A stretch of DNA of 64,000 nucleotides from the NCBI RefSeq assembly GCF_002975435.1, contig NZ_PCPT01000002.1, forward strand, positions 620,001 to 684,000, written 5' to 3'. The translations under genes were made by a program, and so were the position numbers. A model generated the notes under the pieces. The model was given only the letters and a program-made list of their open reading frames with translations, did not search any database and was not told the DNA's origin. Source of the stretch: Arthrobacter sp. MYb227 (GTDB lineage: Bacteria > Actinomycetota > Actinomycetes > Actinomycetales > Micrococcaceae). The number at the start of each line of letters is the position of its first letter. Positions within the stretch are counted from its first letter, which is position 1. Positions 22,161-58,754 of the stretch are shown here, one piece after another.

Positions 22161-22475
22161 TTAGGCCTTGCGCACTAGCTGCAAGTGCCATTCCTCGGGA
22201 TCCTGCTTCAGGTAGATGATGTCGAATGCCCAGGGTGCGCGCTGCTCGAGCTGCTCAAGAAGTGGCAAGGGGTTGTGCGGGGCAATCAGGACGATCCCGC
22301 CGCCAACGGCAATCGAATCAATGGCACCAAAAATTGCCGCATGACGAATCGCGTGTGGAATCACGCGGGCATCGAGCTCGGGGTATCCGGCGTCGTGATC
22401 GCCGCAGGCGCACGCATGAACCGGAGCCTGCTGCTGTGCTTCTTCTTTGCTTGAAGAGATGACGATATCGGCCAT
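22161..22475 (-). CDS. DUF2249 domain protein
   Basis: A 104-residue cytoplasmic protein with a single DUF2249 domain: ELDARVIPHAIRHAAIFGAIDSI, then LIAPHNPLPLLEQL and the ending PEEWHLQLVRKA. The N-terminal tail holds a histidine/cysteine cluster (HACACGDHDAGYPELD). DUF2249 proteins often occur with nitrite, nitric oxide or iron-sulfur repair genes. Here it is divergent from the regulator of a copper nitrite reductase operon, which suggests the same role (inference). An AT-rich inverted repeat lies between the two. Confidence 0.85.
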   Translation of the reverse strand: MADIVISSSKEEAQQQAPVHACACGDHDAGYPELDARVIPHAIRHAAIFGAIDSIAVGGGIVLIAPHNPLPLLEQLEQRAPWAFDIIYLKQDPEEWHLQLVRKA

Positions 22476-22568: not shown

Positions 22569-22612
22569 TCTGCGCCAATTATGACAGTGGTGCATCGGTG
22601 AGAGGAAGCCCT

Positions 22613-23320
22613 ATGCAGCAGGCAAACGAGAATACCGCGCAGCCGGTGCGCAGGACTTCCTATGGGCGCCCGCTCTCGCCCACTCGAGCGAATATTCTCG
22701 AACTTGTTGAGATCCAGCCCGTCCCCACAACGCTCGCTGCCATCGTGCGCAACTGCGGACTGCATGAAAATACTGTCAGGACCCACCTCGATGAACTCAC
22801 CCGCGATGGCTACCTACGCAAAACCAAAGCTGAAGCACAAGGCCGCGGGCGACCTGCCTGGCTGTTCTCGGCCGTAACCCCACTAGAACCTTCACCCTTC
22901 GCCGGTCTCACCTCGGCGCTTGCTGAGGTTCTGTACGAAACCAGCGATAACCCGACCCGCGACGCAAAACGTGCCGGCGCAAAATGGGGCAAACAACTTC
23001 AGTCCACACTTCCAGAAATCCGCGAAGCGGTAGCAGGCGTTGCCGAAGCCAAGGAACGGGTCATGGGTGTGCTTGATGGCATCGGTTTTGAACCAACTAG
23101 CGATGCAAGAACCGAAGAAATCACCCTAAACCGTTGCCCACTGATCGAAGCTGCCAATAAACACCCGGAGATTATCTGCAACGTACATTTGGGTATCATT
23201 GAGGGGGCTGCCGACTCAATGGGCTTTACCTCCGATGGCAGCGTATTGCTTCCGTTCTCCGCACCCGGGCAATGCTCACTGAACCTCGTGCTCAACCGGG
23301 CAAAGACCGGCTCGGCATGA
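22613..23320 (+). CDS. Winged-helix regulator with C-terminal cysteines (SufR/NO-sensor-like)
   Basis: A 235-residue protein with an N-terminal winged helix (LAAIVRNCGLHENTVRTHLDELTRDGYLRK, about 41-70). The C-terminal domain holds three spaced cysteines: NRCPLIEA (C175), PEIICNVHLGII (C189) and GQCSLNL (C221). This resembles SufR-type regulators, where such cysteines hold an iron-sulfur cluster. ATG 22613 is supported by GAGAGGAAG just upstream. The stop overlaps the next start (ATGA), so it leads the operon with the NnrS-like protein and NirK fusion. A nitric-oxide- or redox-sensing role is inferred from the context. Confidence 0.8.
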   Translation: MQQANENTAQPVRRTSYGRPLSPTRANILELVEIQPVPTTLAAIVRNCGLHENTVRTHLDELTRDGYLRKTKAEAQGRGRPAWLFSAVTPLEPSPFAGLTSALAEVLYETSDNPTRDAKRAGAKWGKQLQSTLPEIREAVAGVAEAKERVMGVLDGIGFEPTSDARTEEITLNRCPLIEAANKHPEIICNVHLGIIEGAADSMGFTSDGSVLLPFSAPGQCSLNLVLNRAKTGSA

Positions 23321-24624
23321 GCGCCGGGCCGCGCACTTCCACCCGTACCCCGCGCCCACTTCCATGGCGCACCCTGCTCATGCTTCCAGCCGGACTCAGC
23401 CTTCTAGCAGGACTGAACGCTGCACTGACGCTGCTTGAACTTCCGGCACTTTTCAACGTTGCTGCTTGGTCCGAAGTCCACGGCATGGTCTTGGCCCTAG
23501 GATTTGTCGGCACGCTCGTTGCCCTAGAACGCGCGGTGGCATTGGGGAAACGCGTCGGTTATCTCAGCCCGCTGCTGATCGGGATTGGTTCGCTGCTCCT
23601 GCTGACCTCGCTTCCCCAAAACCTTGGAAAACTCGGACTGCTCTTGGGCATGGCCGGACTTATCTGGGTCTATATACCGCTTTGGCGCAGGCAACGTGAC
23701 AACGCGGTATTGGTGCAGATGCTTGCTGCTGGACTCGGCACCGGGGCCGCATTGCTCTGGCTCGGTGGGTTGGATATGAACCTCTTGCTGCCATGGCTCG
23801 TAGCATTCGTGGTGCTCACCATTGCGGGGGAGCGCATTGAATTGGCACGCATCACCATGGGTGCACGTGCCGGGCGACGAATCGGCCAACTTTCGTGGGG
23901 TGTAACCTTCGGTGTTGTTGGCTCGCTGCTGTGGCCACAGTGGGGGTCTATCGCCTTTGGGCTCTCGTTAGTGGTGCTCACTGCATTTCTGGCCACCAAC
24001 GATGTTGCCCGACGAACCATTAAAGCCACCGGGGCCACCCGATTTATGGCAGCCTGCATGCTTGCCGGCTACGCCTGGCTTAGCGTTGCCGCAATTACCT
24101 GGTGCTTTGGATTTCCAAGCACCCAGGCACGCTATGACACGGTGATTCACGCTGTCTTCCTGGGCTTCACCATGTCGATGATCATTGCCCACTCCTCAAC
24201 GATTCTTCCCGCCGTCTTACGGCGCCCCTTGCCCTACCGCAAGATGATGTGGGCACCGGCAATATTGCTACATGCGGGATTACTGTTGCGCGTATGGATT
24301 GGTGACGGGCTTGGATATCACGGTGCATGGATCATTGGAAGCGTCATCAACATCATCGCATTACTACTCTTCTTTGCCTTCGCCATCCTCAGCGTCGCCC
24401 TCGGTGAGGTACCGTCCAAGACGCCACAGCGACAACGGCCAGACGCGCCAAAACCAGCAAGTGGCCTTGGTGTTGGCGCTCGCCCCGGTAGCCTTAGCCT
24501 CGGTCTAAGTGCCGGACCCAAAGGACAACCAAGACCATCTCAAAACCCGGGACAGGGCCTCGAAACTAGGCCACGATCTTCCACAGAACCACTAGTGCCA
24601 GCGAAGGACACACCGGATGAGTAA
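23317..24624 (+). CDS. Polytopic membrane protein, NnrS-like
   Basis: A 435-residue protein with about 12 hydrophobic segments and a 60-residue Pro/Gly-rich cytoplasmic tail. Histidines lie in membrane segments at WSEVHGMVLALGFVGTLVALER and YDTVIHAVFLGFTMSMIIAHSSTILPAVLRR, a pattern recalling NnrS, a heme/copper membrane protein that relieves nitric oxide stress. Similarity is only by pattern, so the family call is tentative. It overlaps the regulator by four bases and the NirK fusion by eight, so the three are made together. It may supply copper or heme or act as a partner of NirK (inference). Confidence 0.65.
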   Translation: MSAGPRTSTRTPRPLPWRTLLMLPAGLSLLAGLNAALTLLELPALFNVAAWSEVHGMVLALGFVGTLVALERAVALGKRVGYLSPLLIGIGSLLLLTSLPQNLGKLGLLLGMAGLIWVYIPLWRRQRDNAVLVQMLAAGLGTGAALLWLGGLDMNLLLPWLVAFVVLTIAGERIELARITMGARAGRRIGQLSWGVTFGVVGSLLWPQWGSIAFGLSLVVLTAFLATNDVARRTIKATGATRFMAACMLAGYAWLSVAAITWCFGFPSTQARYDTVIHAVFLGFTMSMIIAHSSTILPAVLRRPLPYRKMMWAPAILLHAGLLLRVWIGDGLGYHGAWIIGSVINIIALLLFFAFAILSVALGEVPSKTPQRQRPDAPKPASGLGVGARPGSLSLGLSAGPKGQPRPSQNPGQGLETRPRSSTEPLVPAKDTPDE

Positions 24625-27340
24625 GAATCCAACCAGAGGATTTTGGCCCATGAGGGATTTGCCCGTTGCTATCTGGCTCATGGTTCTGGTGCTCACCACC
24701 CTGATTCACCGTGAGCTACCGGCCCCGCGCTGGCTGATGATTCACCTGATGCTGCTCGGTGCCATCTCTCACGCAATCCTCGTCTGGTCACAATACTTCG
24801 CCTTCGCCTTGCTACGTACCCAGGGCAGCCCTCGAGATCGAATCACCCAAAACTATCGCTTGCTATTGCTAAATATTGGCACCCTCGGAGTCTTTAGTGG
24901 AGTGCTTGGAAACCTGTGGTTAGTTACCGCTACAGGCGCTGCATTGATTGCCGCTGCAGCAATCTGGCATGGGATAAGTCTGTTCCAACGGATGCGACAG
25001 GCACTGCCTTCCCGTTTTGGTGCCACCGTCAAGTACTATATTTTCGCCGCAGCATTCTTGCCCGTCGGGGCACTGCTTGGTGCGATCCTCGCCGGCGGCT
25101 CGGCAATACCTGGCTACCAACAGACGACTCTTTCACACGCAATGCTCAACCTCCTGGGTTGGGTGGGGCTGACAGTCGCAGGAACCTTGGTGACCCTATG
25201 GCCCACCATGCTGCGTACCAAGATTGCCGATCACGCGGCCCGAAATTCCCAGCAAGCCTTGCCAATACTTGCCGGGTCCGCCGTCATTGCGGCGCTGGGT
25301 GCCGGGTTCAATATGCTTCCGGTGGCAGTTCTTGGATTAGTTGGCTACGTCGTGGGCCTCGGAATCATGGCAGGATCCTTTATTCAGGTGGCCCGCAATA
25401 AACCACCCAAGACTTTTTCTACGCTCTCGGTACTTGCTGCTGTTGGTTGGTGGATAGGCTGCCTGATTGCCATGGTTATCATGCTGGTTTCCACGGGAGA
25501 GATGAATGTCGCGTACAGCGGTTTTAGAAGTGTTGTGCCATACGTGGTGGCAGGCTTTGCTGCTCAGATTCTCTTGGGCGCACTCTCCTACCTGATTCCG
25601 GTGGTGCTTGGCGGGGGACCACGCCCGGTGCGTGCAGCAACAACGGTCTTTGACAAAGGCGCTGTACTGCGCGTGGTAACCGCAAACCTTGCACTACTTG
25701 CCTGCGTGCTTCCGGTGCCCTCACTTGTACGAGTGATCTGCTCGGTGCTATACCTCATTGCCATGTCTAGCTTCTTGATCCTGCTCTTTGCTGCGATGCG
25801 GGCCCACAAACTCGCCAAGCGGGAAATTGCAGCTGCTCCTGCGCCGACTCCCGGTTTGCGGCGTGAACGTGTGGCTCCGGAAGGCGATCGACCTGCCGGT
25901 CAGCGCGCGGGTCAGGCGATGGTGGGGCTGCTTGCAGTGGTTCTTGCCATCGCCATCGGTGTTGCCCTGGATCCGGCCTCCAGCGGAATCGCTGCCCCAC
26001 CGGCAGCTAGCTCAAGTCAATCACTGGCGGCGCCAACCGAAGATGTGAAGACTCAAACCATCAAGGTTGAGGCAGCAAATATGCGTTTCACCCCGGCAGT
26101 AATAGAAGTTGAAGCCGGAACCCGACTGGTCATCGAACTAACTAATACCGACACCGCAGATACCCATGATCTGGTGCTTGCCGCCGGGGCCGACAGCGGG
26201 CGGCTCTCCCCGGGACAATCTGCAACCATCGATGCCGGGGTGATCACTCAGGACGTTGCTGGCTGGTGCTCGATAGTGGGCCACAAACAAATGGGCATGG
26301 TCTTCGAGATCAAGGTGACTGGCGAGGTATCATCCGATCCCGACTCAACACCGCAATCCGGCGCAATCGATGAAGCGCCAACCGGTCTCAGCTCTATGCA
26401 TGGCTCCACGCACGGCACCCAGCCCTTGGCAACCGAGGGCACCCCCAAGCTCGACTTCCAAGCCAAACCAGCGACGGATTTCACGGCCCGCGACGCCCGC
26501 TTGCCCCAACTTGCACCCAAAAATAAGGATGGCAGCCCCACCACCCACAAGATCATGCTCACCGCGCAGGAAATGATCACCGAGGTGGCACCCGGTGTTC
26601 GGCAAAAACTCTGGACCTTCAATGGCACAGCGCCGGGCCCCCTGTTGCACGGGCGAGTGGGTGACACCTTTGAGGTGACGCTGAAAAATGATGGCACCAT
26701 GGGCCACTCGATTGACTTCCATGCAGGTGCCTTGGCCCCCGATAAGCCCATGCGAACCATTGCCCCGGGTGAGTCACTGAACTACACCTTTACCGCCACC
26801 AAGGCCGGAATCTGGATGTATCACTGCTCCACGATGCCGATGAGTGCCCACATTGCTAATGGCATGTTTGGCACCGTGGTTATCGAGCCCGAGGATCTGC
26901 CCGAGGCTGACCGTTCCTATGTACTGACCCAATCCGAGTTCTACCTCGGTGCCCGGGACAAGGAAGTGAACGCTGATAAACTCGCGATCGAAACCCCCGA
27001 CATGGTGGTTTTTAACGGCTATGCAAACCAGTATGACCACCGGCCGCTTGAAGCAACGGTGGGGCAACGGGTTCGCATTTGGTTGTTGGATGCCGGGCCA
27101 AACCGTGCTTCCTCGTTCCATATCATTGGAGGACAATTCGATACCACGTGGTTTGAGGGCGCGTATCTTTTAGACCGACGTGATGGCGGTGAAGGTGGCA
27201 GTCAGGCCTTGGCATTAGCGGTGGCTCAAGGCGGGTTTGTTGAGCTCGAATTCCCCGAGGCCGGTTCCTATCCTTTCGTTTCACACGTGATGATTGATGC
27301 CGAACGTGGCGCGCATGGGCTGTTCAAAGTCAGCAAGTAA
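24617..27340 (+). CDS. nirK: Copper nitrite reductase fused to a membrane domain and an extra cupredoxin
   Basis: A 907-residue protein in three parts. Residues 1-395 form about 10-11 membrane helices, and another helix lies at about 432-452. A cupredoxin spans about 480-567 with type-1 copper ligands H517, C551, H556 and M559. Residues 620-907 are a NirK two-domain unit with every functional residue: H697 and H702 (HSIDFH, with the catalytic Asp700), H736-C737, H745 and M750, the active-site H835 (SSFHIIGG) and H890 (YPFVSHVMIDA). NirK reduces nitrite to nitric oxide as a trimer. Known NirK is about 350 residues; the membrane-tethered, cupredoxin-bearing form suggests direct electron delivery. 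ATG 24617 overlaps the upstream gene. Confidence 0.88.
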   Translation: MSKNPTRGFWPMRDLPVAIWLMVLVLTTLIHRELPAPRWLMIHLMLLGAISHAILVWSQYFAFALLRTQGSPRDRITQNYRLLLLNIGTLGVFSGVLGNLWLVTATGAALIAAAAIWHGISLFQRMRQALPSRFGATVKYYIFAAAFLPVGALLGAILAGGSAIPGYQQTTLSHAMLNLLGWVGLTVAGTLVTLWPTMLRTKIADHAARNSQQALPILAGSAVIAALGAGFNMLPVAVLGLVGYVVGLGIMAGSFIQVARNKPPKTFSTLSVLAAVGWWIGCLIAMVIMLVSTGEMNVAYSGFRSVVPYVVAGFAAQILLGALSYLIPVVLGGGPRPVRAATTVFDKGAVLRVVTANLALLACVLPVPSLVRVICSVLYLIAMSSFLILLFAAMRAHKLAKREIAAAPAPTPGLRRERVAPEGDRPAGQRAGQAMVGLLAVVLAIAIGVALDPASSGIAAPPAASSSQSLAAPTEDVKTQTIKVEAANMRFTPAVIEVEAGTRLVIELTNTDTADTHDLVLAAGADSGRLSPGQSATIDAGVITQDVAGWCSIVGHKQMGMVFEIKVTGEVSSDPDSTPQSGAIDEAPTGLSSMHGSTHGTQPLATEGTPKLDFQAKPATDFTARDARLPQLAPKNKDGSPTTHKIMLTAQEMITEVAPGVRQKLWTFNGTAPGPLLHGRVGDTFEVTLKNDGTMGHSIDFHAGALAPDKPMRTIAPGESLNYTFTATKAGIWMYHCSTMPMSAHIANGMFGTVVIEPEDLPEADRSYVLTQSEFYLGARDKEVNADKLAIETPDMVVFNGYANQYDHRPLEATVGQRVRIWLLDAGPNRASSFHIIGGQFDTTWFEGAYLLDRRDGGEGGSQALALAVAQGGFVELEFPEAGSYPFVSHVMIDAERGAHGLFKVSK

Positions 27341-27519: not shown

Positions 27520-27936
27520 GTGCGTGAAATTCTCGGGGCTGTGGGTCCCGCACTAGAACTCTTCGGTTGGTTCGCACTTCTTGGAGCCATCGGATTCTTT
27601 GTAGTGGCCAAAATTTCCAGGCGTGGTCATGCTACCTGGCGTGAAGCTCTCTGCGAGGTGACCTCGTTGGAGGGACAACGTTGTGTGGTCTGGAACACCG
27701 AGGACGGGGTTGCCCATAGTCGGGTGCTCGCCGAACTCGAACACGGCGAAGAACCGAGCATCATTCCTGAACGCGTATTTTTCAAACAGCACGAACCATT
27801 GCTGATCCGTTTGGTCCCGCCGCGCTCCAATGTGCGATTCATGCTGGTACTTGCCTGGACCATGACGGCATTGTGGGTTTTGAGCAATGTGGTTCCGCTC
27901 ATTATGCAGCAACTATTGATTGCAGAGTCCGCCTAG
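27520..27936 (+). CDS. Small membrane protein of unknown function
   Basis: A 138-residue protein with one N-terminal (ALELFGWFALLGAIGFFVVAKI) and one C-terminal (FMLVLAWTMTALWVLSNVVPLIM) membrane helix around a soluble middle part of beta character (EGQRCVVWNTEDGVAHSRVL). The layout recalls DUF3592-like proteins but I cannot confirm it. GTG start. It lies 179 bases after the NirK fusion and overlaps the convergent sugar dehydrogenase gene by four bases through a shared CTAG. Confidence 0.6.
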   Translation: MREILGAVGPALELFGWFALLGAIGFFVVAKISRRGHATWREALCEVTSLEGQRCVVWNTEDGVAHSRVLAELEHGEEPSIIPERVFFKQHEPLLIRLVPPRSNVRFMLVLAWTMTALWVLSNVVPLIMQQLLIAESA

Positions 27937-29174: not shown

Positions 29175-30095
29175 CTACTTAGCAGCGGTCAACGAATCGA
29201 CCCATTCCTGATTCTCGGTGATCCACTTATCGACGATCGGACCGTAGTCCTGGGTTTCGTCCTGGTTGAACATGGCGTTTTCCAAGGAGAAGAGCTTGTC
29301 GTCATCCATCTTGAAGCCCGCCATCCAGCCCGTGAGGGTGGGGAAGTCGTCCTTGAATGTCAGGCTGCCGTAGGAGCTGATGTGCTCGGCGGTACCCAAT
29401 GCACCCTTGGGATCTTCGAGGTCCTTGATGGGGAAGGCATCATAGGCCCAGTGCGGGCGCCACAACGTGACAACGATGTTGTCCCCGGCTGTGGTGGCCT
29501 TCTTCAACTCGGTCAACATCGCCGTGGTTGAGGAAGTCACGAAGTCCATCTTCTCCAAGCCGTAGTCCGGGCTGACCCGATCCTTCATAGCAGCAGTCAA
29601 CCCTGCACCCGGGTCGATGCCTACGATACGGTTGCCGAACATGTCTGCCTTGGCGGCGAGCTCGTCCAAGGACGTGATGTCAGCGTCCTTATTGACAGCA
29701 ACTGTCAGCTTGGCGTTTTCGTTCCACGTGCCCAGTTCCTGCATTTTGTCGCCGTACTTTTCTAAGTACTGAGCGTGGGTGTCCGGAAGCCAGACGTCCA
29801 TGGTCATGTCGAAGTCGCCGGTGCTGACACCTGTGAAGACCGGTGCCGCATCGGCGCTGGTCAGGGTTACATCGTAACCCTTCTTGTCCAGAATGCGCTC
29901 CCAGAGATTGGAGACGGCAATGCCTTCGTCCCAGCCGGCGAACACGCCAATGGTCAGTTCCTTTTTGTCGCCGTTGTCGAGTCGCTCAACCGTGGGCGAA
30001 GCTGCCGGATCATTGCCGTCGCCCGATCCGCAGGCCGTCAGGGCTAGCGCGGACGCCGCGGCAACGGCCATCAGCGATATGAGTTTCTTTTTCAT
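29175..30095 (-). CDS. Glycine betaine ABC transporter, substrate-binding lipoprotein
   Basis: A 306-residue OpuAC-type binding protein. The signal ends in the lipobox LALTACGSG. Family blocks include LTIGVFAGWDEGIAVSNLWERIL, DFDMTMDVWLPDTHAQYLEKYG, RIVGIDPGAGLTAAMKD and VVTLWRPHWAYDAFPIKDLEDP; tryptophans in these blocks form the quaternary-ammonium cage in OpuAC/ProX. The C-terminal WITENQEWVDSL is usual. Third gene of an ATPase-permease-binding protein operon; typically for osmoprotectant uptake. Confidence 0.92.
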   Translation of the reverse strand: MKKKLISLMAVAAASALALTACGSGDGNDPAASPTVERLDNGDKKELTIGVFAGWDEGIAVSNLWERILDKKGYDVTLTSADAAPVFTGVSTGDFDMTMDVWLPDTHAQYLEKYGDKMQELGTWNENAKLTVAVNKDADITSLDELAAKADMFGNRIVGIDPGAGLTAAMKDRVSPDYGLEKMDFVTSSTTAMLTELKKATTAGDNIVVTLWRPHWAYDAFPIKDLEDPKGALGTAEHISSYGSLTFKDDFPTLTGWMAGFKMDDDKLFSLENAMFNQDETQDYGPIVDKWITENQEWVDSLTAAK

Positions 30096-30155
30096 GAAAA
30101 TTTCCTTTCAACGGTGGCTCCCGGCTGAATGGGTGCCTCATATATTGGTGACTGC

Positions 30156-31001
30156 CTACGCCGCCACGTGCTTCTTGGCATGGCTCAGCGAAGCAGTGAT
30201 GCGATCTAGGAAGATCGCCAAGATGACAACAGCGAGGCCAGATTCCACACCCAACGGTGTATTCAAACTGGTCAAAGCCCCATAGACGGCACCACCGAGG
30301 CCGCCGGCGCCGATCATGCCGGCGATGACGACCATGGAGAGGGAAAGCATAATGATTTGGTTGATGCCGGCCATGATGGTGGGCATCGCCAGCGGGATCT
30401 GGATCTGGCGCAGGATACGCATCGGTGAGGCACCGAAAGCCTGTCCCGCTTCGACTACTTCTTTATCCACTGAACGAATTCCCAGCTCGGTGAAGCGAGC
30501 TCCCGGAGCCAGCGCAAAGGCGATGGTCGCCACGATGCCGGGAACTGGTCCGAGGCCCAGCAGCAACAACATCGGAATCAGGTACACGAAGGCCGGCATA
30601 GTCTGTAGGAAGTCCAAGACCGGTTTGACGATGCTGGAGACCACAGAGGACTTGGCAGCGGCGATGCCCAGCGGCACAGAGATGACCACAGCGACCAGCG
30701 ATGCCACGAGCACGAGCGCTAATGAGTTCATGGCGTTTGTCCACTGGTTCATACCGTAGATCAGCAAGAAGCCAAGGACGCTACCCACAGCGAGCTTCCA
30801 GCCCTTGAGCCAAAATGCAAGGGCGGCAAGCACGATGATGATGACCCAGAAAGGTGGAGTCGTCAGGACCCAATCAAGCCCTGCGTAGAATTTCGCGAAG
30901 AAGACCTTGACACCATCGAAGAACGCTCCAAGGTTGGCGATGATCCAGTCAAGGGCTGTTTCCGCCCACTTACCCACGGGAATGCGGAACAAATTGTCCA
31001 T
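30156..31001 (-). CDS. Glycine betaine ABC transporter, permease
   Basis: A 281-residue OpuAB/ProW-type permease with about six membrane helices. The coupling region is FALAPGARFTELGIRSVDKEVVEAGQAFGASPMRILRQIQIPLAMPTIMAGINQ, the conserved EAA loop that docks to the ATPase. The N-terminal part holds VLTTPPFWVIIIVLAALAFW. Its start overlaps the ATPase stop by one base, showing coupled translation. Confidence 0.93.
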   Translation of the reverse strand: MDNLFRIPVGKWAETALDWIIANLGAFFDGVKVFFAKFYAGLDWVLTTPPFWVIIIVLAALAFWLKGWKLAVGSVLGFLLIYGMNQWTNAMNSLALVLVASLVAVVISVPLGIAAAKSSVVSSIVKPVLDFLQTMPAFVYLIPMLLLLGLGPVPGIVATIAFALAPGARFTELGIRSVDKEVVEAGQAFGASPMRILRQIQIPLAMPTIMAGINQIIMLSLSMVVIAGMIGAGGLGGAVYGALTSLNTPLGVESGLAVVILAIFLDRITASLSHAKKHVAA

Positions 31002-32329
31002 TAGAGTGCGCCTCCCTCTTCACCAAATGGTTCCTGGGTAAATATCCGTGGTTTCTGACTGCCATCATCACTTCCGGCACTCTGCCCCGGGGGCAATACG
31101 TCCAGGGAGCTAGTCGTCGATGGCACGTTACCCAGAGCTGCAAGTAACGTTGCACGAGCCACAGCGCCGACCAACCTTCCACGTTCATCGATGACAGGCA
31201 GCGGGGTACTGCTTTCCACTGCACGTCCAAAAAGATCGTTGAGTGGAGTTTCAGAGGAAACTGCATCATCGGCACGGGTCAAGATCTCTGTGAGATCAGA
31301 TCCTCCCCGATCGGCTAGCGCCTGGGTTTCGCGGTCGGTGACGATCCCGCGGAAGTTCCGGTGCCTGTCGACGACGAAGGCGCCGGAGGTCTGCTGCTCA
31401 CGCATCGTCAACAATGCGGCGCGGGCACCACCGCTGATCGAGACCACGGCACGCGGATTCTGCATCACGGCACCGGCGGTGAGCACGCGCGTGCGGTCAA
31501 CATCCCTGACAAAGGCCGAAACATAATCGTTGGCAGGGTGCGTAAGGATCTCATCGGGGGTGCCGATCTGCACGATCTCTCCATCGCGCATGACGGCGAT
31601 TCGGTCACCGAGGAACATTGCCTCGTTCAAATCGTGGGTAATAAAAATGATGGTCTTGCCCAGATCCGCTTGTAGAGCGGCAAGCTGCTCCTGCATATCG
31701 CGGCGGATTAACGGGTCAAGCGCGGAGAATGCCTCGTCCATCAGGAGGATGTCTGTTTCCGAGCACAGCGCACGGGCAAGGCCGACGCGTTGCTGCATGC
31801 CACCGGAGAGCTGCGAGGGGTACTTATCTCCCCAACCGGTCAGCCCGACGGTGTCGAGCATCTTGGTGGCTAGGTCGGTACGTTTTTTCTTATCTACGCC
31901 CTGAATCTCCAACGCATAGGCGGCGTTTTCCAATACCGTGCGGTGTGGCAACAACGCAAAGTGCTGGAAGACCATGGAAATGCTTTTTTGCCGGACCTCG
32001 CGCAGCCGCTTTCCGGAGATCTTGGAAATGTCTACATCTCCAATGTGAACCGACCCGCTGGTCATGGGCCACAGTCCGTTGAGCATCCGGATCAACGTTG
32101 ACTTGCCGGAGCCGGATAGACCCATGACAACGAAGATCTCTCCGGGTCGCACCTCAAACGACGCATCGATGACTGCCGCGGTTCCCAGCGGTGCCACATC
32201 CTCACGGGTCTGACCCTCTTGGAGCGCTTTCACTGCTTCTTGCGGTCTACGCCCGAACACCTTGAAGGCGTTTGCGACACGTAGGGCCGGCGGTGCTGCC
32301 CCGGGTGCTGATTTCATGGGTAGTTCCAT
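31001..32329 (-). CDS. Glycine betaine ABC transporter, ATPase with CBS domains
   Basis: A 442-residue OpuAA/ProV-type ATPase. Motifs in order: Walker A GLSGSGKST, Q-loop VFQHFALLPHRTV, signature LSGGMQQRVGLARAL, Walker B ILLMDEAFSALDP and switch FITHDLNEA. The last ~150 residues are paired CBS domains (GAFVVDRHRNFRGIVTDRE; PLPVIDERGRLVGAVARATLL), which in OpuA sense ionic strength and, in some bacteria, bind cyclic-di-AMP. The start is uncertain: ATG 32329 is used, ATG 32317 and GTG 32380 are possible. A leader hairpin lies upstream. Confidence 0.92.
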   Translation of the reverse strand: MELPMKSAPGAAPPALRVANAFKVFGRRPQEAVKALQEGQTREDVAPLGTAAVIDASFEVRPGEIFVVMGLSGSGKSTLIRMLNGLWPMTSGSVHIGDVDISKISGKRLREVRQKSISMVFQHFALLPHRTVLENAAYALEIQGVDKKKRTDLATKMLDTVGLTGWGDKYPSQLSGGMQQRVGLARALCSETDILLMDEAFSALDPLIRRDMQEQLAALQADLGKTIIFITHDLNEAMFLGDRIAVMRDGEIVQIGTPDEILTHPANDYVSAFVRDVDRTRVLTAGAVMQNPRAVVSISGGARAALLTMREQQTSGAFVVDRHRNFRGIVTDRETQALADRGGSDLTEILTRADDAVSSETPLNDLFGRAVESSTPLPVIDERGRLVGAVARATLLAALGNVPSTTSSLDVLPPGQSAGSDDGSQKPRIFTQEPFGEEGGAL

Positions 32330-32384
32330 CCACGTGGAGCGCGGAAGATCCGGCCTCACGATTTGTGCTTTCTGGATCACAGAG

Positions 32385-51830: not shown

Positions 51831-52667
51831 GTGAAGATCCATAGATATAGCGAAGTCGATGTTTTCTCCCCGCTTGCATACCAAGGCAACCCACTGGCGG
51901 TGGTGCATGATGCAGATGAGCTGAGCACCGAGCAGATGCAACGCTTCGCCAAATGGACGAACCTTGCCGAAACCACGTTCCTACTCACCCCCACCAACCC
52001 GCTGGCCGACTACCGGGTTCGCATCTTCTCCGCCACCCAAGAGTTCCCCTTCGCCGGTCACCCAACACTCGGCACGGCATTTTCTTGGCTGGATCGTGGG
52101 GGAAAGGCCAAGAACGAACACGAGGTCATTCAGGAGTGCGGTGCCGGACTGATCAACGTCCGAGTCGATGACCAATCACTTGCCTTCAAAGCCCCACCGC
52201 TGACTCGCTATGAACCGGTGGCCGAAGCACAGATACATGAGATTGCTGTAGCTCTTGGCATTACCCGCGAAACCATCCTCGACTGCTCCTGGCTGGTCAA
52301 CGGTCCGGAATGGATTGGGGTCAAACTCGCTAACGCCCAAGAAGTGCTTGCCCTGCGCCCAGATCCCGCAAATCTTGGCACCTTCTGTGTGGGAGTGATC
52401 GGTGAGCATTCACCCGGGCACGACGCCCGCTTTGAGGTGCGCGCATTCCTTGGGGACGATCCGGTATGGGAAGACCCGGTGACCGGAAGCCTGAATGCCG
52501 GATTGGCACGTTGGATCTTCGATACTACAAACATCGACAGGCACTATACTGCTGCCCAAGGCACGGTCATTGGCTACCACGGACGAGTGCACATCACCGC
52601 CGATGGGGACGACATCTGGGTTGGTGGAAATGTGTCCAGCTGTGTTCGCGGTGAAGTCAGCCTCTAG
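51831..52667 (+). CDS. PhzF-family isomerase-like protein
   Basis: A 278-residue PhzF/YddE-family protein. The family pattern YSEVDVFSPLAYQGNPLAVV and catalytic-glutamate block NLAETTFLLTP (E48-like), plus FPFAGHPTLGTAF and the second-half block EDPVTGSLNAGLARWI, are all present. PhzF acts in phenazine synthesis, but most relatives have unknown isomerase reactions. GTG start. Its stop shares CTAG with the kdpE stop. Confidence 0.9.
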   Translation: MKIHRYSEVDVFSPLAYQGNPLAVVHDADELSTEQMQRFAKWTNLAETTFLLTPTNPLADYRVRIFSATQEFPFAGHPTLGTAFSWLDRGGKAKNEHEVIQECGAGLINVRVDDQSLAFKAPPLTRYEPVAEAQIHEIAVALGITRETILDCSWLVNGPEWIGVKLANAQEVLALRPDPANLGTFCVGVIGEHSPGHDARFEVRAFLGDDPVWEDPVTGSLNAGLARWIFDTTNIDRHYTAAQGTVIGYHGRVHITADGDDIWVGGNVSSCVRGEVSL

Positions 52668-53371
52668 GATCCTTCATCGGGAACAAACCTGTACCCCATG
52701 CCAGGCTCGGTGATGAGATACCGTGGCGTTGAAGGAACCGGCTCAAGCTTCTTACGCAATTGCCCCACATAAAGACGCAGATACCCGGTCTCCTTGAGTA
52801 AATGCGGTCCCCACACCTGTTCAAGTAAGAATTGTTGAGTGACAAGCTTGCCAGGGGCATTGAGCAACACCTCCAGCACCTGCCATTCGGTGGGCGTCAA
52901 ACGCAGCACCCGCTGGTCCGGTCCACGCGTGACGACCTTGGCTGCCATATCGACGCTCACCTGACCAAAGCGAATCACCGCTGGTCCTGCAGTGCTGGTG
53001 GTTCCTGCAGCGCTCGGGGTGCGCCTTGATAGTGCACGAATCCGCGCCAATAATTCCTCGGTGGAAAAAGGCTTGGTGACATAGTCATCGGCACCAGCAT
53101 CTAGGGCAGCGACCTTGTCAGTTGCATCGCTGCGCCCGGAAAGCACCAAGATCGGCATCGATGACCAGCCACGCACGGCACTAATCACTTCAATCCCATC
53201 AAGCTTTGGCATCCCCAAATCCAGCAACAACAAATCCGGGTGACGTTCAACGGCCAACCGCACGGCCGCCGCACCATCGGCAGCCGGGATTACCTCATAA
53301 CCGTAGGCAGCAAGGGTAATGCGCAGGGCACGTAAAATCTGCGGATCGTCATCGGCCAACAAAATTTTCAT
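52664..53371 (-). CDS. kdpE: KdpE response regulator
   Basis: A 235-residue OmpR-type regulator. The receiver has acidic ILLADDDPQIL, the phosphorylated Asp in LLLDLGMPKLDG and Lys in VTKPFSTEELLARI; the winged helix ends with GYLRLYVGQLRKKLE and GMGYRFVPDE. It is the last gene of kdpFABCDE and begins inside the end of kdpD. Controlled with KdpD by potassium limitation. Confidence 0.95.
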   Translation of the reverse strand: MKILLADDDPQILRALRITLAAYGYEVIPAADGAAAVRLAVERHPDLLLLDLGMPKLDGIEVISAVRGWSSMPILVLSGRSDATDKVAALDAGADDYVTKPFSTEELLARIRALSRRTPSAAGTTSTAGPAVIRFGQVSVDMAAKVVTRGPDQRVLRLTPTEWQVLEVLLNAPGKLVTQQFLLEQVWGPHLLKETGYLRLYVGQLRKKLEPVPSTPRYLITEPGMGYRFVPDEGS

Positions 53372-55884
53372 CTAGTTTCTCCCTCACGCGGTTCCGCCAC
53401 AGACCCGGGCTCCACAGCCGAGCCGGGCAGGGAAAGCACAATGGTTAATCCTCCACCCGGGGTATCTTCCGGAAGTAGCGACCCACCCATTGCCTCGGCA
53501 AAGCCACGAGACAGCGCAAGCCCCAACCCCAACCCGGTTAGATTATCGGTATCCCCACGACGCTGGAACGGAACAAAAACCGACTCCCTGAGTTCTGCAG
53601 GAATCCCGGGACCAAAATCTATAACCCTGATCTCTGTACGCCCACCAAATTGGCTTGCAGCAAGAATCGGCGTCCGTGAACCAGCTCCATGCCGCACCGC
53701 GTTGAGCAACAGATTCACCACGATGCGCTGAAAGAGCACCGGATCGGCCTGAACCATCGCCAACCCCACCGGGATCTCCAGCTCAAGTGCATCCGGACCC
53801 AACCCAGCCTCTTCAAGAGCAGGCAACAACATGTCCTCCACCCCAGTGGTAACCATATGCACCCCCAACATTCCCGCCTGAAGCCGCGAAACATCCAAAA
53901 GATCGGTGACAAGCAAGGAAAGAGAATGAACCGATTCGGTTGCGGTTTCCAATAGCTCGGTCCGATCCGCTGGCGAATAGGAAACTTCGGTTGAACCAAG
54001 CGCGCTCAGCGCAGTAGTTGCGGCGGTCAGCGGCCGGCGCAGATCATGACCCAGCGCCTGAAGCAATGCACTACGCAATTTATCTGCTCGAGCCAACGGC
54101 CCAAGTTCATCTGCAGTTGCCGAGACCGCTCGAAAATCCAGCACAGCTTCCAGCTGGGAAATAATTGCACCAAGCGCTCGCCGGTCGGAGACGGCAAGCT
54201 CCCTGCCATAGAGTTCAAGGCGTGCTTTTTCACCCACGGGTAGACTCACAGGATCCCGGCTCAGCACCCCGGCCTGATAGTTTTCTCCCGCCGGATCAAC
54301 CAAACGCACCCCGGTCAGGCCAAAAGCCTCACGCGTTTGATCAATCAAGGCACTCAGTGCATCGGTACCGCGCAACACCGAACCCGAAACCGTTGCCAAG
54401 AGCGCGGATTCGGCGACGGCTCGCGTTGCGGTGCGATGCCGCCGGGCAGCCTGATCAACGACAACTGAGACCAACCCGGCAATGAGAATGTATAAAACCA
54501 GCACCACAAGGTGTGTGGGCTCGGCAATGGTGATCGTGTAGAGCGGTTCAATAAAGAAAAAGTCAAGACTGAGCCCGGAAAGCAGCGCGGCAAAGACTGC
54601 TGGAAACAGCCCACCGACCAAGGCGACGATTACCACCAACATTTGGTAGGCAAGCACATCGACGGTAATTGAATCATCGCTATTGGGTAGCGTGTGAAGA
54701 AACCATGTAAGCAGCGGCCCGCCAAGTAACGCGAGAATAAATCCGGTAAGGGTGCGATGTACGCTCAGCGCGCCACCGGCGCGTGGCAAACGGTGCCCGC
54801 CGGCGGCCGCGGCATGATTAACCATGTGTACATCGATGTCCCCGCTCAGGCGCACAATCCCGGCACCGATGCCCGGGCCGCTGAGCGCCGCAGCTAGCTT
54901 TGAACGCCGCGAGGCACCAACCACCAGCTGGGTAGCGTTTTCGGCGCGCGCAAACTCAACAAGTGCTGCGGGGATATCCTCGCCAATTACCTGATGAAAG
55001 CTCCCGCCGAGCCGTTCAACAAGTAACCATTGGTCTGCCAAGAGTTTGGGGTGAGCTTCGAGTAGCCCGTTGGGTGCGGCTACGTGCACGGCGCTTAGCT
55101 CCCCGCCACCTGAACGTGCTGCAATTCTGGCCCCGCGACGCAACAGCGTCTCGCCTTCCTCACCACCGGTCAAGGCAACCATGACTCGTTCACGTGTTTC
55201 CCAACGGGTTGATATCCCGTGTTCGGCGCGGTATTTTTCCAGCGCGGAATCCACCTCGTCGGCAAGCCAGAGCAGCGCCAATTCTCTCAGTGCCGTGAGG
55301 TTTCCAAGCCGGAAATAGTTTGAGAGTGCGGCATCGATGCGCCCCGGCGGATAGATCAGCCCTTCCCCGAGCCGCTCACGAAGGCCCTGCGGCGTTAGAT
55401 CAATCAGTTCGATGGCATCTGCGGCCCGCAACACGGCATCGGGAATCATCTCGCGTTGGGCAACCCCGGTGATTTCCTGCACCACGTCGGCCAGCGATTC
55501 GATGTGTTGGACGTTCAAGGTAGAAATTACATCGATCCCGGCGGTAAGTAATTCATCAACATCCTGCCATCGCTTGGCATTGCCTCCGCTGCCAACATTT
55601 GAATGCGCCAGCTCATCAACGAGCGCGATCTGTGGTGCGCGGACTAACACTGAGGCAAGATCCATATCGGAAAGTTGCACCCCGCGATGGGTAAGATGCT
55701 TTCGTGGAATTAGCTCAAGTCCGGAAACCAGCGCGGCGGTGGGTTCCCGCTCATGGGTTTCCACGAGGGCCAAAACCACGTCTTTGCCCTCGGAAAGCAG
55801 CTGGTGGCCTTCTTGGAGCATTGCGTAGGTCTTGCCGACGCCGGGGGCCGCGCCGAGTAAGACCCTTAACGTTCCACGTCTCAT
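53368..55884 (-). CDS. kdpD: KdpD sensor histidine kinase
   Basis: An 838-residue KdpD with the N-terminal KdpD domain (Walker-like LRVLLGAAPGVGKTYAML), a universal-stress-protein domain at about 230-360, four membrane helices (about 385-490), a GAF-like part, and the kinase core with phosphorylated His in LLQALGHDLRRPLT and ATP motifs NLLLNAVRHGAGS and DFGPGIP. ATG 55884 is used, five bases before the kdpC stop. Full length. Confidence 0.95.
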   Translation of the reverse strand: MRRGTLRVLLGAAPGVGKTYAMLQEGHQLLSEGKDVVLALVETHEREPTAALVSGLELIPRKHLTHRGVQLSDMDLASVLVRAPQIALVDELAHSNVGSGGNAKRWQDVDELLTAGIDVISTLNVQHIESLADVVQEITGVAQREMIPDAVLRAADAIELIDLTPQGLRERLGEGLIYPPGRIDAALSNYFRLGNLTALRELALLWLADEVDSALEKYRAEHGISTRWETRERVMVALTGGEEGETLLRRGARIAARSGGGELSAVHVAAPNGLLEAHPKLLADQWLLVERLGGSFHQVIGEDIPAALVEFARAENATQLVVGASRRSKLAAALSGPGIGAGIVRLSGDIDVHMVNHAAAAGGHRLPRAGGALSVHRTLTGFILALLGGPLLTWFLHTLPNSDDSITVDVLAYQMLVVIVALVGGLFPAVFAALLSGLSLDFFFIEPLYTITIAEPTHLVVLVLYILIAGLVSVVVDQAARRHRTATRAVAESALLATVSGSVLRGTDALSALIDQTREAFGLTGVRLVDPAGENYQAGVLSRDPVSLPVGEKARLELYGRELAVSDRRALGAIISQLEAVLDFRAVSATADELGPLARADKLRSALLQALGHDLRRPLTAATTALSALGSTEVSYSPADRTELLETATESVHSLSLLVTDLLDVSRLQAGMLGVHMVTTGVEDMLLPALEEAGLGPDALELEIPVGLAMVQADPVLFQRIVVNLLLNAVRHGAGSRTPILAASQFGGRTEIRVIDFGPGIPAELRESVFVPFQRRGDTDNLTGLGLGLALSRGFAEAMGGSLLPEDTPGGGLTIVLSLPGSAVEPGSVAEPREGETR

Positions 55885-55888
55885 GTGG

Positions 55889-56500
55889 CTAATTCTCCAA
55901 CCGTGAAAGGGCAATGTTTAGCTCCAACACGTTGATTCTTTCTTCTCCCAAAAATCCTAGGTCACGGCCCGTTGTTTGCTGGTGCACCAGCGCGAGAACC
56001 TTAGCCAGATCCAGTGAGCGGGCTTTAGCCACTCGTGGAGCCTGATCAAGAGCGTTTGCGACCGAGATATCCGGGTCAAGTCCGGAGGCGGAAGCTGTCA
56101 GTGCATCCGGTGGCACCACAATAGTTCCGGGGTTTTGCGCAAGATAAGCTGCCTTGCGCGCGGCGATCTCCTTGAGCAGTACCGGGTTTTCCGGACCCAG
56201 GTTGGATCCGGAGGATGCTGTGCCGTCATAGCCGGTGCCGGCTGCCGAGGGACGCGGCTGAAAATAGGCCGGGTCCGGAGTACCGTCGGGCCTAGTGAAA
56301 GTTTGCCCCAGCAGGGCCGAACCCACCGGGCCCGTATGTCCGGGGGACTGGAGCATTGAACCGTTGGCCTGGGCGGGGAAAGCTAGCTGCCCAATACCCA
56401 AAATGGCCGCGGGAAAGAGCACACCCAGGACCAAAGTGAGAATGAGCATTGAACGCACCGACACCCAAAGTGTGCGGGAAACCGAACGGGTTGTAGCCAT
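55889..56500 (-). CDS. kdpC: Potassium-transporting ATPase subunit C
   Basis: A 203-residue protein with one N-terminal helix (SMLILTLVLGVLFPAAILGIGQLAF) and the external domain containing LGQTFTRPDGTPDPAYFQPRPSAAG, DALTASASGLDPDISVANALDQAPRVA and LGFLGEERINVLELN. KdpC stabilises the KdpFABC complex and aids ATP binding. ATG 56500 is used; an upstream TTG at 56512 is possible. Confidence 0.95.
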   Translation of the reverse strand: MATTRSVSRTLWVSVRSMLILTLVLGVLFPAAILGIGQLAFPAQANGSMLQSPGHTGPVGSALLGQTFTRPDGTPDPAYFQPRPSAAGTGYDGTASSGSNLGPENPVLLKEIAARKAAYLAQNPGTIVVPPDALTASASGLDPDISVANALDQAPRVAKARSLDLAKVLALVHQQTTGRDLGFLGEERINVLELNIALSRLEN

Positions 56501-56582
56501 GGCGTATATCAATCCTTTGAAGAGCGGAAAATAGGGGAGAAATCAGCGAAAGTGCCGAACACTCAGGAGGTTGCGGTGCGCA

Positions 56583-58748
56583 TCAGAACCCCGGAATCAG
56601 TGAGATCAACATGTCGATGAGCTTGATTCCGATAAACGGAACAATGACTCCACCCAGACCGTAAATCAGCAGGTTGCGGTTAAGCGTTGCGGCGGCCGAA
56701 CGCGGATGGTATTTCACCCCGCGCAGTGCCAAGGGAATCAAAAAGACGATCACCAGCGCATTGAAAATCACCGCCGAAAGGATTGCGGAGGCCGGGGTGG
56801 AAAGCCCCATAATGTTAAGCACCGCCAGACCTGGGAAAGCTATCGAGAACATTGCCGGGATGATCGCGAAGTACTTGGCAACGTCGTTGGCGATCGAGAA
56901 CGTTGTCAGCGCGCCACGGGTGATCAGCAATTGTTTGCCGATGCGCACCACGTCGATCAGCTTGGTTGGATCCGAATCCAGATCAACCATGTTCCCGGCC
57001 TCCTTCGCCGCGGAGGTACCCGAATTCATCGCCATTCCAACATCGGCCTGCGCCAACGCCGGGGCATCGTTTGTGCCATCGCCGGTCATAGCCACCAAGT
57101 TGCCGCCTGCCTGCTCGGCCTTGATCAACTCCATCTTGTCTTCCGGGGTGGCCTCGGCCAGAAAATCATCCACGCCCGCCTCGGCGGCAATCGCGGCGGC
57201 GGTGCGCGGATTATCCCCGGTGATCATCACGGTACGAATGCCCATGGCACGTAGTTGCGCAAAGCGCTCCTTGAGACCCTGCTTGACCACATCCTTCAGG
57301 TAGACGACGCCCAGCACCGAGGCACTATCTGCGGTGCGGGTGGCGACCACCAGCGGGGTGCCACCGACTGTAGAGATCTTCTCGATGATCGTCCCTAGTT
57401 CCTGCTGGCGCCCGGACTCAAGCGGCGCAGACTCTGCCACCCAGGCCAGGATCGCGGAACCGGTGCCCTTGCGCAGCGAGCTTCCGTCGGTGAAGTCGAT
57501 GCCGCTCATGCGTGTTTGCGCGGTGAATTCCACGCTCACTCCGTCAGGGTTCCGATCGGCCTGCACACCCAAGGAAGAAGCGAGGGTGAGAATCGATTGG
57601 CCTTCCGGTGTTGCATCGGCAACCGAAGCATCGGCAGCGGCCCGTGCCAACTGGGTTTGGGTCACCCCGGAAAGCGGATGGAACTCGGCTGCCTGCCGAT
57701 TGCCATAGGTAATGGTGCCGGTCTTATCAAGCAGCAGCGTGGTGATATCTCCGGCCGCCTCCACCGCCCGCCCGGATAACGCCAGCACATTGTGTTGGAT
57801 CAGCCTGTCCATGCCAGCAATGCCGATCGCCGAAAGCAACGCACCAATGGTTGTCGGGATCAGGCAGACCAGCAGCGCAATGAGTACCGGCAGGGACACC
57901 TGGGCGTTTGAGTATGCGGCAATCGGATTCAAGGCAAGCACTATAACCACAAAAATGATCGAGAGCGTGGCAAGTAAGATATTTAGCGCAATCTCGTTGG
58001 GGGTCTTTTGACGCTGGGCACCCTCGACCAACTTGATCATCCGGTCAACCAGTGAATCTCCCACGGCCGTGGTGATCCGCACGATGATGGCATCGGAGAT
58101 CACCTTTGTACCTCCTGTGACAGCCGATCGATCGCCACCGGATTCACGGATCACCGGGGCAGATTCTCCGGTGATTGCCGATTCGTCGATGGCTGCGATG
58201 CCATTGACGATTTCACCGTCGCCCGGCACCAGTTCACCGGCGATGATCCGTACGTAATCTCCGATGCGCAGGTCGGTTGAAGGGATTTGTGTTGTTGCCA
58301 GCTTGTTGCCGGTGGGATCGTTGCTTGGGTCATAGCCTTGCAGCACTGTCGCCATGGTTGAAGTTCGCGAAGCCCGCAACGATGCAGCCTGAGCCTTGCC
58401 GCGGCCCTCCGCAACAGACTCGGCAAGGTTTGCAAAAAGCACAGTCAGCCACAGCCAGCCGGCAACCGCCGCGGTAAAACCGGCGGGCTCCGCCGAATTT
58501 TCGGCGCCGGAAGATGCGGCGAGGAAGGGCTCTGCAACGGCCAACGCGGTGGTCAGCAACGCGCCAATGAGCACTATGAACATCACCGGGGAATGCCACA
58601 TCAGCCGTGGATCAAGTTTCTTGAAGGCACCGGGGACCGCTGCCCTGACTTGAGCCAGACTCAGTGCACTACTGCGCGGAGTGTGCTCGTGGCCGTGAGG
58701 AGCGGAACCCGTAGGAGGTTCTGTTGCATCTTTAATGAGAATAGACAT
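56583..58748 (-). CDS. kdpB: Potassium-transporting ATPase subunit B (P-type)
   Basis: A 721-residue P-type ATPase. The phosphorylation site is [15 protein letters not shown]; the actuator motif is ITGESAPV, the hinge [24 protein letters not shown], and IMITGDNP-type [14 protein letters not shown]. It has the seven-helix membrane arrangement of KdpB and an N-terminal extension of about 35 residues rich in Pro/His. It supplies energy for potassium uptake through KdpA. Confidence 0.96.
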
Positions 58749-58754
58749 GATGAC

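Follow-up and report, generated by a model that had tools for sequence, protein, structure and literature searches.

The window, the whole 64,000-nucleotide stretch of DNA analysed here, encodes a protein in which a membrane module, a tethered cupredoxin and a copper nitrite reductase (NirK) domain are joined in a single chain. Upstream lie genes for another membrane protein, a winged-helix regulator and a divergently oriented DUF2249 protein (Table 1).

Table 1. Genes and protein domains at the nirK locus (window positions)
Feature	Position	Strand	Remarks
DUF2249 protein	22161..22475	-	divergent; in conserved neighbourhood
Winged-helix regulator	22598..23320	+	conserved cysteines C180, C194, C226
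Upstream membrane protein	23272..24624	+	450 aa; weakly NnrS-like; 8-base overlap with nirK start
Fused membrane module-cupredoxin-NirK protein	24617..27340	+	907 aa
Membrane module, residues 1-402	24617..25822	+	12 long helices; predicted heme-copper oxidase/NO reductase fold
13th membrane helix, residues 429-451	25901..25969	+	taken to bring the chain outside
Tethered cupredoxin, residues 474-572	26036..26332	+	type-1 copper ligands H517, C551, H556, M561
NirK domain, residues 625-906	26489..27334	+	type 1 H697/C737/H745/M750; type 2 H702/H736/H890; catalytic D700, H835

The fused protein and its copper domains

The frame of the fused protein runs from ATG to stop without internal stop codons. 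In a sample of 394 genomes from the class, its layout recurs as a single unbroken frame in 46, comprising 37 with one match free of stops and nine with two matches, whose frames were inspected (G062 among them), and dN/dS ranged from 0.08 to 0.45 across all three domains in ten hand-picked pairs. The protein is real, intact and conserved, bearing out the one-chain arrangement of 907 residues proposed in a preliminary description of the locus. That description had itself named a sequence error merging separate genes as grounds for its rejection; relatives do have separate genes, but the 46 unbroken layouts rule out such a merger and leave next to no room for an assembly error or a chance fusion.

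The three-part layout is already known: actinobacterial NirK with a membrane domain and a cupredoxin, of the Propionibacterium acnes type, is in print (Decleyre et al. 2016, PMC4770552, citing earlier work). In the available part of that paper, this type has about 900 residues, a 400-residue transmembrane extension, a CX4HX4M cupredoxin and a NirK core, a layout that does not differ from that of the window protein, and its membrane domain is assigned no function. The window protein, with a membrane part of 400 residues, a CX4HX4M cupredoxin and NirK in one chain, belongs to this actinobacterial type.

Residue conservation was assessed in 54 full-length relatives, counting the window protein and filtered so that their membrane parts share less than 72% identity, and in an alignment of 87 rows. 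The latter contains two duplicates, L085 repeating the window protein and L130 repeating L091, and omits L002, L069, L089 and every shorter match. The NirK domain matched the Cu-oxidase_3 profile (residues 655-759, E 3.2e-16) and the copper nitrite reductase family TIGR02376 (residues 628-905, E 8.4e-49), the latter with 166.7 bits, below the curated NCBI cut-off of 296.3. Four of five NirK relatives scored 154-174 bits against the same family and the fifth, L128, passed with 320.7, while a multicopper oxidase relative (L125) reached 59.8. The closest PDB relatives over residues 641-906 are nitrite reductases. All type 1, type 2 and catalytic residues, which the preliminary description had reported as complete, are present and invariant in 54 of 54 relatives, with the exception of the axial type 1 ligand M750 (Met in 77 of the 87 rows, Leu in the other 10). 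Judged by this full residue set, the window protein is a copper nitrite reductase, and it presumably reduces nitrite. The cupredoxin, matched by the Cupredoxin_1 profile at residues 470-539 (E 2.4e-11), retains all four ligands in 54 of 54 relatives. Three of them, H517, C551 and H556, had been named before; the methionine had been placed at M559, which occurs in 71 of 87 rows, and is reassigned to M561, found in all 87 and in agreement with the CX4HX4M motif in the available part of PMC4770552.

A membrane module with a predicted oxidase-type fold

The AF2 model of residues 1-402 (pLDDT 96.6) contains 13 helices of at least four residues; with an 11-residue helix (335-345) counted as non-crossing, 12 remain and, together with the helix at 429-451, replace the about ten membrane helices estimated earlier. 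Loop charges obey the positive-inside rule, on which basis the cupredoxin and NirK are predicted to lie outside the membrane. A Foldseek search of the module model against the PDB gave 220 matches at E ≤10, 11 of them at E ≤0.001, and the 50 listed of these 220 were all heme-copper oxidases, NO reductases (NORs; 4xyd, E 7e-4) or supercomplexes containing them, the subunit I chain being judged by length and chain as the listing gives no subunit name. In its predicted structure the module has the 12-helix fold of subunit I, and it probably shares descent with the heme-copper oxidases. A description of this membrane domain as oxidase-like was not found in the open-access literature searched; recognising in it a predicted oxidase- or NOR-like fold whose ligands are altered makes the electron route to actinobacterial NirK directly testable.

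Compared by sequence, the module and the oxidases are weakly linked. Pfam COX1 did not match the window protein and gave one match among 57 module members (E 0.0024). A COX1 search matched two stand-alone module relatives (E 4.5e-6 and 2e-5, both under the cut-off) and neither the window protein nor other fused copies; it also matched L184 and L185 (E 1.8e-4 and 9.7e-4), neither of which matches the module profile. Aligning the module with a COX1 alignment made here by hhalign yielded E about 1e-3 and a probability of 19-24%, but paired the H174 helix with helix X, not VI, so that the alignment was judged repeat-shifted and was not used to assign ligands. The module profile found no oxidase among PDB sequences; its three matches there to SemiSWEET-type transporters (E 0.15-0.22) were taken as chance. 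Of the two families against which residues 1-395 had been proposed for comparison, subunit I holds for the predicted fold, with the weak sequence match just described, and NnrS was rejected (no Pfam match in 57 members, hhalign E 0.2-0.34).

Oxidase subunit I carries six histidines in helices II, VI, VII and X; those in helices VII and X hold CuB and hemes, and the usual low-spin heme pair sits on helices II and X. In the module, H43 (codon at 24743), H118 (24968) and H174 (25136) are invariant in 54 of 54 relatives, and H43 and H174 in 57 of 57 members, including 13 stand-alone modules. H43 lies on helix 2 and H174 on helix 6, the only two of the four counterpart helices with an invariant histidine; no conserved histidine occurs in helices 7 and 10 in either the 87-row or the 54-relative alignment. 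The usual low-spin heme pair is thereby impossible, and with the histidine set incomplete we do not class the module as an oxidase or NOR; unlike in subunit I, catalysis would take place in the copper head. A working NO reductase in the module, with one chain taking nitrite to N2O, would suit the NOR-like fold and the lack of any other NOR among the COX1 family matches of the genome: the COX1 family search recovers HLWVE-type (NOR-like) proteins elsewhere (L168, L169), but in this genome returned two COX1 genes, both judged aa3-type from their HPEVY motif, and no NO reductase. Without conserved histidines in helices 7 and 10, however, the module lacks both an FeB triad and a high-spin heme ligand of the known kind, and we consider this reading highly improbable.

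Gene arrangements and the upstream membrane protein

Modules are shuffled among relatives. The module gene adjoins a separate cupredoxin-NirK gene in L115/L212, a separate NirK gene in L128 and a cupredoxin-multicopper oxidase gene in L125. In L203, L204 and L206, NirK and the cupredoxin are encoded by separate, neighbouring genes. In L216 it is the upstream protein that is fused to cupredoxin-NirK, with the module standing alone in the same nitrate-reductase cluster. Stand-alone modules with no adjoining copper enzyme were found in 11 of 15 loci (L115-L129) and in L217-L225, and a cupredoxin-NirK frame without a fused module in seven of 394 genomes (five inspected).

The upstream protein has invariant H70, H293, H307, E86-R87 and E187-R188. 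Its resemblance to NnrS lies in two invariant histidines, H70 and H293, placed by eye like H67 and H312 of NnrS, and in the nitrite/NO setting; in sequence the protein is weakly similar and scores below the family cut-off (Pfam NnrS, 10.6 bits against 28, E 0.35; three of 38 members matching at E ≤1, best 0.22; hhalign E 0.015). Its profile matched no PDB sequence, and a search of the strain's genome for NnrS found none at E ≤1. Comparison with the membrane module (E 1e-4 to 2e-5, probability 57-78%) is suggestive of distant kinship only. All 30 genomes of the class sample that carry the upstream gene also match the fused protein; conversely, the gene is absent from 19 of the 46 genomes with the fusion and lies away from nirK in five of the 27 possessing it.

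Oxidase/NOR-fold module and NnrS-like neighbour might together bind, sense or channel NO instead of delivering electrons. Such handling of the product would accord with the NO reductases among the fold matches, the histidine placement in the neighbour and the lack of a NO reductase in the COX1 family search of the genome. We think it unlikely, given how faint the NnrS resemblance is and that a module also adjoins the multicopper oxidase gene in L125, where NO is not expected.

Electron supply to NirK

We favour, with even confidence, a membrane-tethered nitrite reductase fed through the modified oxidase-fold module and the tethered cupredoxin. The module would descend from subunit I of a heme-copper oxidase or NO reductase; having lost the centre that reduces the gas, it would now transfer electrons near the outer face by way of bound heme, probably heme b on H43 and/or H174. 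The 12-helix module would supply the cupredoxin with electrons, which would pass to the NirK type 1 copper and on within the NirK head, where nitrite would be reduced to NO at the type 2 copper, outside the membrane. Where present, the NnrS-like upstream protein would act as an accessory partner, probably binding heme. We infer that heme is bound and that electrons come from the quinol pool and flow in this direction, and likewise the roles given to the upstream protein and the regulator. The mechanism is supported by copper ligands that, M750 apart, never vary among the 54 relatives, by the fold matches, the COX1 matches to two stand-alone modules, the invariance of H43 and H174, the loop charges, the low dN/dS and the shuffling of modules; it is weakened by the lack of conserved histidines in helices 7 and 10, the weak sequence link to oxidases, the stand-alone modules without a copper neighbour, the seven genomes with unfused cupredoxin-NirK and an upstream gene that some genomes with the fusion lack or carry away from nirK.

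For the step from cupredoxin to NirK, a comparison is offered by the three-domain NirK of Hyphomicrobium denitrificans (PDB 2dv6, 6tfo), which heads the fold matches found with the full-chain model. This hexameric enzyme likewise has an N-terminal cupredoxin fused to NirK but, unlike the window protein, no membrane module. In pulse radiolysis its N-terminal cupredoxin copper, about 24 Å from the core copper, was reduced first and then handed the electron on (PMC7201279). This order counts for the proposed path, while the 24 Å gap counts against it, as does a cupredoxin-site mutant reported as more active in the available part of PMC4770552. Our full single-chain model deviates from the Hyphomicrobium enzyme by an rmsd of 26 Å over 467 columns, which suggests that the cupredoxin is placed differently in the model.

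The module could instead be an anchor without a redox centre that holds NirK beside a bc1-aa3 supercomplex, with cytochrome c feeding the cupredoxin or NirK directly, a reading we hold possible but doubtful. The two aa3-type COX1 genes and the absence of most canonical oxidase histidines speak for it, as does the available part of a study of Intrasporangium calvum, whose authors place NirK downstream of the Rieske protein and assume a route via bc1 (PMC6349771); NirK of that species is probably of the fused type, judging from its congener L046. Against it, the invariance of H43 and H174 even in the 13 stand-alone modules exceeds what an anchor needs, and 12 helices would be costly where a lipoprotein or a single helix suffices.

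A more specific form of the module-fed mechanism, to which we lend tentative credence, is an oxidase-derived quinol:nitrite oxidoreductase, in which electrons would run from menaquinol through the oxidase-fold module (and the NnrS-like partner where present) to the cupredoxin and NirK, bypassing bc1 and soluble cytochrome c, and both membrane proteins would be interchangeable carriers of the copper head, as in L216. We know of no quinol-site motif for an oxidase/NOR-type module fold, and no quinol site was identified in the module; the absent helix VII and X histidines and the 24 Å separation in Hyphomicrobium NirK also speak against the uptake of electrons from quinol that the preliminary description had suggested. 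If true, electron supply through the module would add an example of an oxidase scaffold turned to delivering electrons, with a bearing on which actinobacteria release NO. The winged-helix regulator, which may resemble SufR, is perhaps an Fe-S sensor and, with its cysteines, may answer to nitrite or NO. In I. calvum, according to the available part of the study, nirK transcripts increase with nitrite (PMC6349771).

Architecture of the fused chain

An unbroken 907-codon frame occupies 24617-27340 and, together with the domain matches, bears out the preliminary description of three parts in one chain. The nearest solved structures to the encoded protein, spanning residues 641-906, are nitrite reductases. 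Its copper ligand sets are complete and, M750 excepted, unchanged across a filtered set of 54 relatives; the NirK set was therefore rightly described as complete, and the cupredoxin ligand previously given as M559 should be M561, as judged by conservation among relatives. M750, the axial ligand of the NirK type-1 site, is replaced by leucine in 10 of 87 aligned rows (loci L019, L021, L026, L035, L039, L047, L056, L058, L060 and L062), all titled Nocardioides or Nocardioidaceae. Leucine at this position should raise the copper potential.

In ten chosen pairs of relatives, dN/dS ranged from 0.08 to 0.45 for each of the three domains (membrane module, cupredoxin, NirK). The second linker was under looser constraint, with values above 1 in two of the pairs. 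Pairwise distances of module and NirK correlated at 0.77 (3,570 pairs), as expected for one inherited chain, which says nothing on function.

Segments of the 907-residue protein and arrangement of its parts in loci of relatives (L-handles)
Segment or loci	Residues or arrangement	Remark
Membrane part	1-402	
Additional helix	429-451	
Cupredoxin	about 474-572	
Linker	572-606	poorly ordered, pLDDT <50
NirK domain	about 625-906	
L115 (same place as L212)	cupredoxin-NirK gene, then membrane-module gene	adjacent
L128	membrane-module gene, then NirK gene	adjacent
L125	cupredoxin-multicopper oxidase gene, then membrane-module gene	adjacent
L203, L204, L206	NirK adjoining separate cupredoxin gene	
L200, L201, L202, L205, L207, L208, L226, L227, L228	cupredoxin-NirK	no module in stretch examined
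L116, L118-L124, L126, L127, L129	stand-alone module	no cupredoxin/NirK match in stretch examined
L217-L225	stand-alone module	no cupredoxin/NirK match in stretch examined; some at contig ends
L117	stand-alone module	multicopper oxidase gene 2.3 kb off

Fold and putative role of the membrane module

Pfam has no named family for the membrane module, and scanning 57 module relatives returned scattered weak matches, including one to COX1 at E 0.0024. An AlphaFold2 model built from 57 sequences (pLDDT 96.6, pTM 0.94) comprised one short helix, at residues 335-345, besides twelve long ones. Foldseek comparison of this model with the PDB gave 220 matches at E <= 10, 11 of them at E <= 0.001; the 50 listed among these 220, with query TM-scores of 0.43-0.73, were all cbb3, ba3, aa3 or quinol oxidases, cNOR, qNOR or supercomplexes containing them. 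We know of no solved NnrS structure, so this search cannot separate an NnrS-like from an oxidase-like ancestry. At the sequence level, a scan of 100 genomes with the COX1 family model matched two stand-alone module relatives, at E 4.5e-6 and E 2e-5 and both short of the curated cut-off, a hint of oxidase kinship. The scan matched none of the fused copies in these genomes, the window's included, and also picked up two proteins unrelated to the module (E 1.8e-4 and 9.7e-4). In the open-access library searched, we found no paper naming the fold of the actinobacterial NirK membrane domain, and the model would provide a testable identification of this part of the layout.

Canonical oxidases hold the low-spin heme on helices II and X, the high-spin heme on X and CuB on VI and VII. 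H43, H118 and H174, which lie on helices 2, 4 and 6 respectively, are unchanged throughout the fused family (54/54); when 13 stand-alone modules were aligned with 44 fused ones, H43 and H174 were kept in all 57, and H118 was not invariant. By helix count, H43 would correspond to the heme ligand on helix II, and H174 to the CuB ligand on helix VI. A profile alignment paired the H174 helix with helix X instead of helix VI, which we attribute to repeats within the fold. Helices 7 and 10 carry no conserved histidine in the alignment of relatives, so the gas-reducing centre is gone and heme, if bound, is held differently.

Over the 54 sequences, mean loop charge (K+R) was 0.00-0.63 in the six stretches predicted to be outside and 1.13-2.54 in the seven predicted to be inside; these means are raw and uncorrected for length, with four outer loops only 2-4 residues long, but even the two longer outer loops (7-8 residues; 0.57 and 0.63) lie below inner loops of similar length (5-8 residues; 1.22-2.26). 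Given 13 crossings, the charge rule predicts that cupredoxin and NirK lie outside the membrane, like NirK elsewhere.

Electron delivery by the module is the best supported reading, which we hold about as probable as not, and direct quinol oxidation by the fused protein is possible. The Hyphomicrobium cupredoxin copper lies ~24 A off the core and is still reduced first in pulse radiolysis (PMC7201279); a tethered donor domain alters apparent Km and copper potentials (PMC13324648); Bacillus NirK, a predicted lipoprotein, may use menaquinol by an unclear route (PMC3475470); and nirK is transcribed in Intrasporangium calvum, where a Rieske protein is put upstream of NirK (PMC6349771).

Occurrence and rearrangement of the parts

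The three-part layout is real, widespread and already described: PMC4770552 reports a 900-aa P. acnes NirK whose transmembrane domain is assigned no function there, with a cupredoxin in every actinobacterial NirK that it covers but a membrane part not in every one; other Nir fusions are reported from Chloroflexi (PMC8756737). By record titles, 78 of the 80 loci kept (the best 80 of 313 confirmed candidate stretches) bear actinobacterial names. Bacillota names stand on the other two, Bacillus sp. AZ43 (L022) and Sporosarcina beigongshangi (L082), whose copies are of actinobacterial type. Given their identity to a Blastococcus (87.7%) and an Arthrobacter protein (76.7%), respectively, the labels may be wrong; mislabelling, contamination or transfer may each account for these records.

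In the class sample, 62 of 394 genomes matched the protein (E <= 1e-20) and 46 carried the complete three-part chain without a break in the frame, 37 with a single match and nine with two matches whose frames were checked (G062 and eight others). The phylum sample gave matches in 63 of 296 genomes. Fused copies occurred in 7 of its 26 genomes from the same class (G000, G139, G288, G023, G182, G038 and G062), and among the 270 beyond it no stop-free match joining module and NirK was seen: module and NirK stand in line in G025 (the genome of L128), separated by a TGA, and long frames in G078 and G108 matched in the NirK part alone.

The shuffling seen in the table is evidence for a partnership of module and copper enzyme, yet shows that the module also exists apart from NirK. 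The stand-alone module directly behind the cupredoxin-multicopper oxidase gene (L125:4348-7213) hints at a broader family of membrane-fed copper enzymes. Two ORFs adjoining NirK genes, L209:3053-4513 and L210:3010-4557, match the membrane-module profile weakly (E 2e-7 and 6e-7).

Neighbouring genes and nitrogen physiology

The source genome carries narG and two oxidase-type COX1 genes, and a COX1 family search found no NO reductase in it, so conversion of nitrate via nitrite to NO is likely.

Within 6 kb, the upstream membrane-protein gene occurs in 69 of the 80 loci and in each of them lies immediately upstream of NirK. The regulator is present in 71 of the loci and DUF2249 in 66, some missing neighbours reflecting contig ends. 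In the class sample, all 30 genomes (of 394) with the upstream gene fall within the 62 matching NirK, a hypergeometric probability of 5e-28 that exaggerates the significance, because related genomes are not independent. The gene is present in 27 of the 46 fused genomes, adjoining nirK in 22 and elsewhere in five (G355, G367, G577, G639 and G647), with only pieces matched in G421 and G639; absent from 19, it is not essential. In G343 (L216:15458-18157), the upstream protein replaces the module, fused to cupredoxin-NirK in one open frame of 899 codons, and the cluster also holds a stand-alone module, on the far side of narG- and narH-type genes; this fusion is known from one contig of a genome 84% complete. 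In a related genome, G328 (L215), adjacent genes encode the module, nar-type proteins, cupredoxin-NirK, the regulator and the upstream protein. H70 and H293 of the upstream protein are invariant (38/38) and, by eye, placed like the invariant H67 and H312 of NnrS (15/15), although its NnrS family score is below the cut-off.

The regulator (22598-23320) retains C180 and C194 in 72 of 72 relatives and C226 in 66, the other six rows having a gap; these cysteines could hold an Fe-S cluster, perhaps NO-sensing. After nirK, a 138-aa ORF with hydrophobic ends (27520-27936) was matched in 3 of the 80 related loci, and a profile scan placed it in no family above cut-off. Further along lie what we take, by eye, to be a glycine-betaine-type ABC transporter (29175-32380) and a kdp-like potassium-uptake cluster with its own two-component system (52664-60422).
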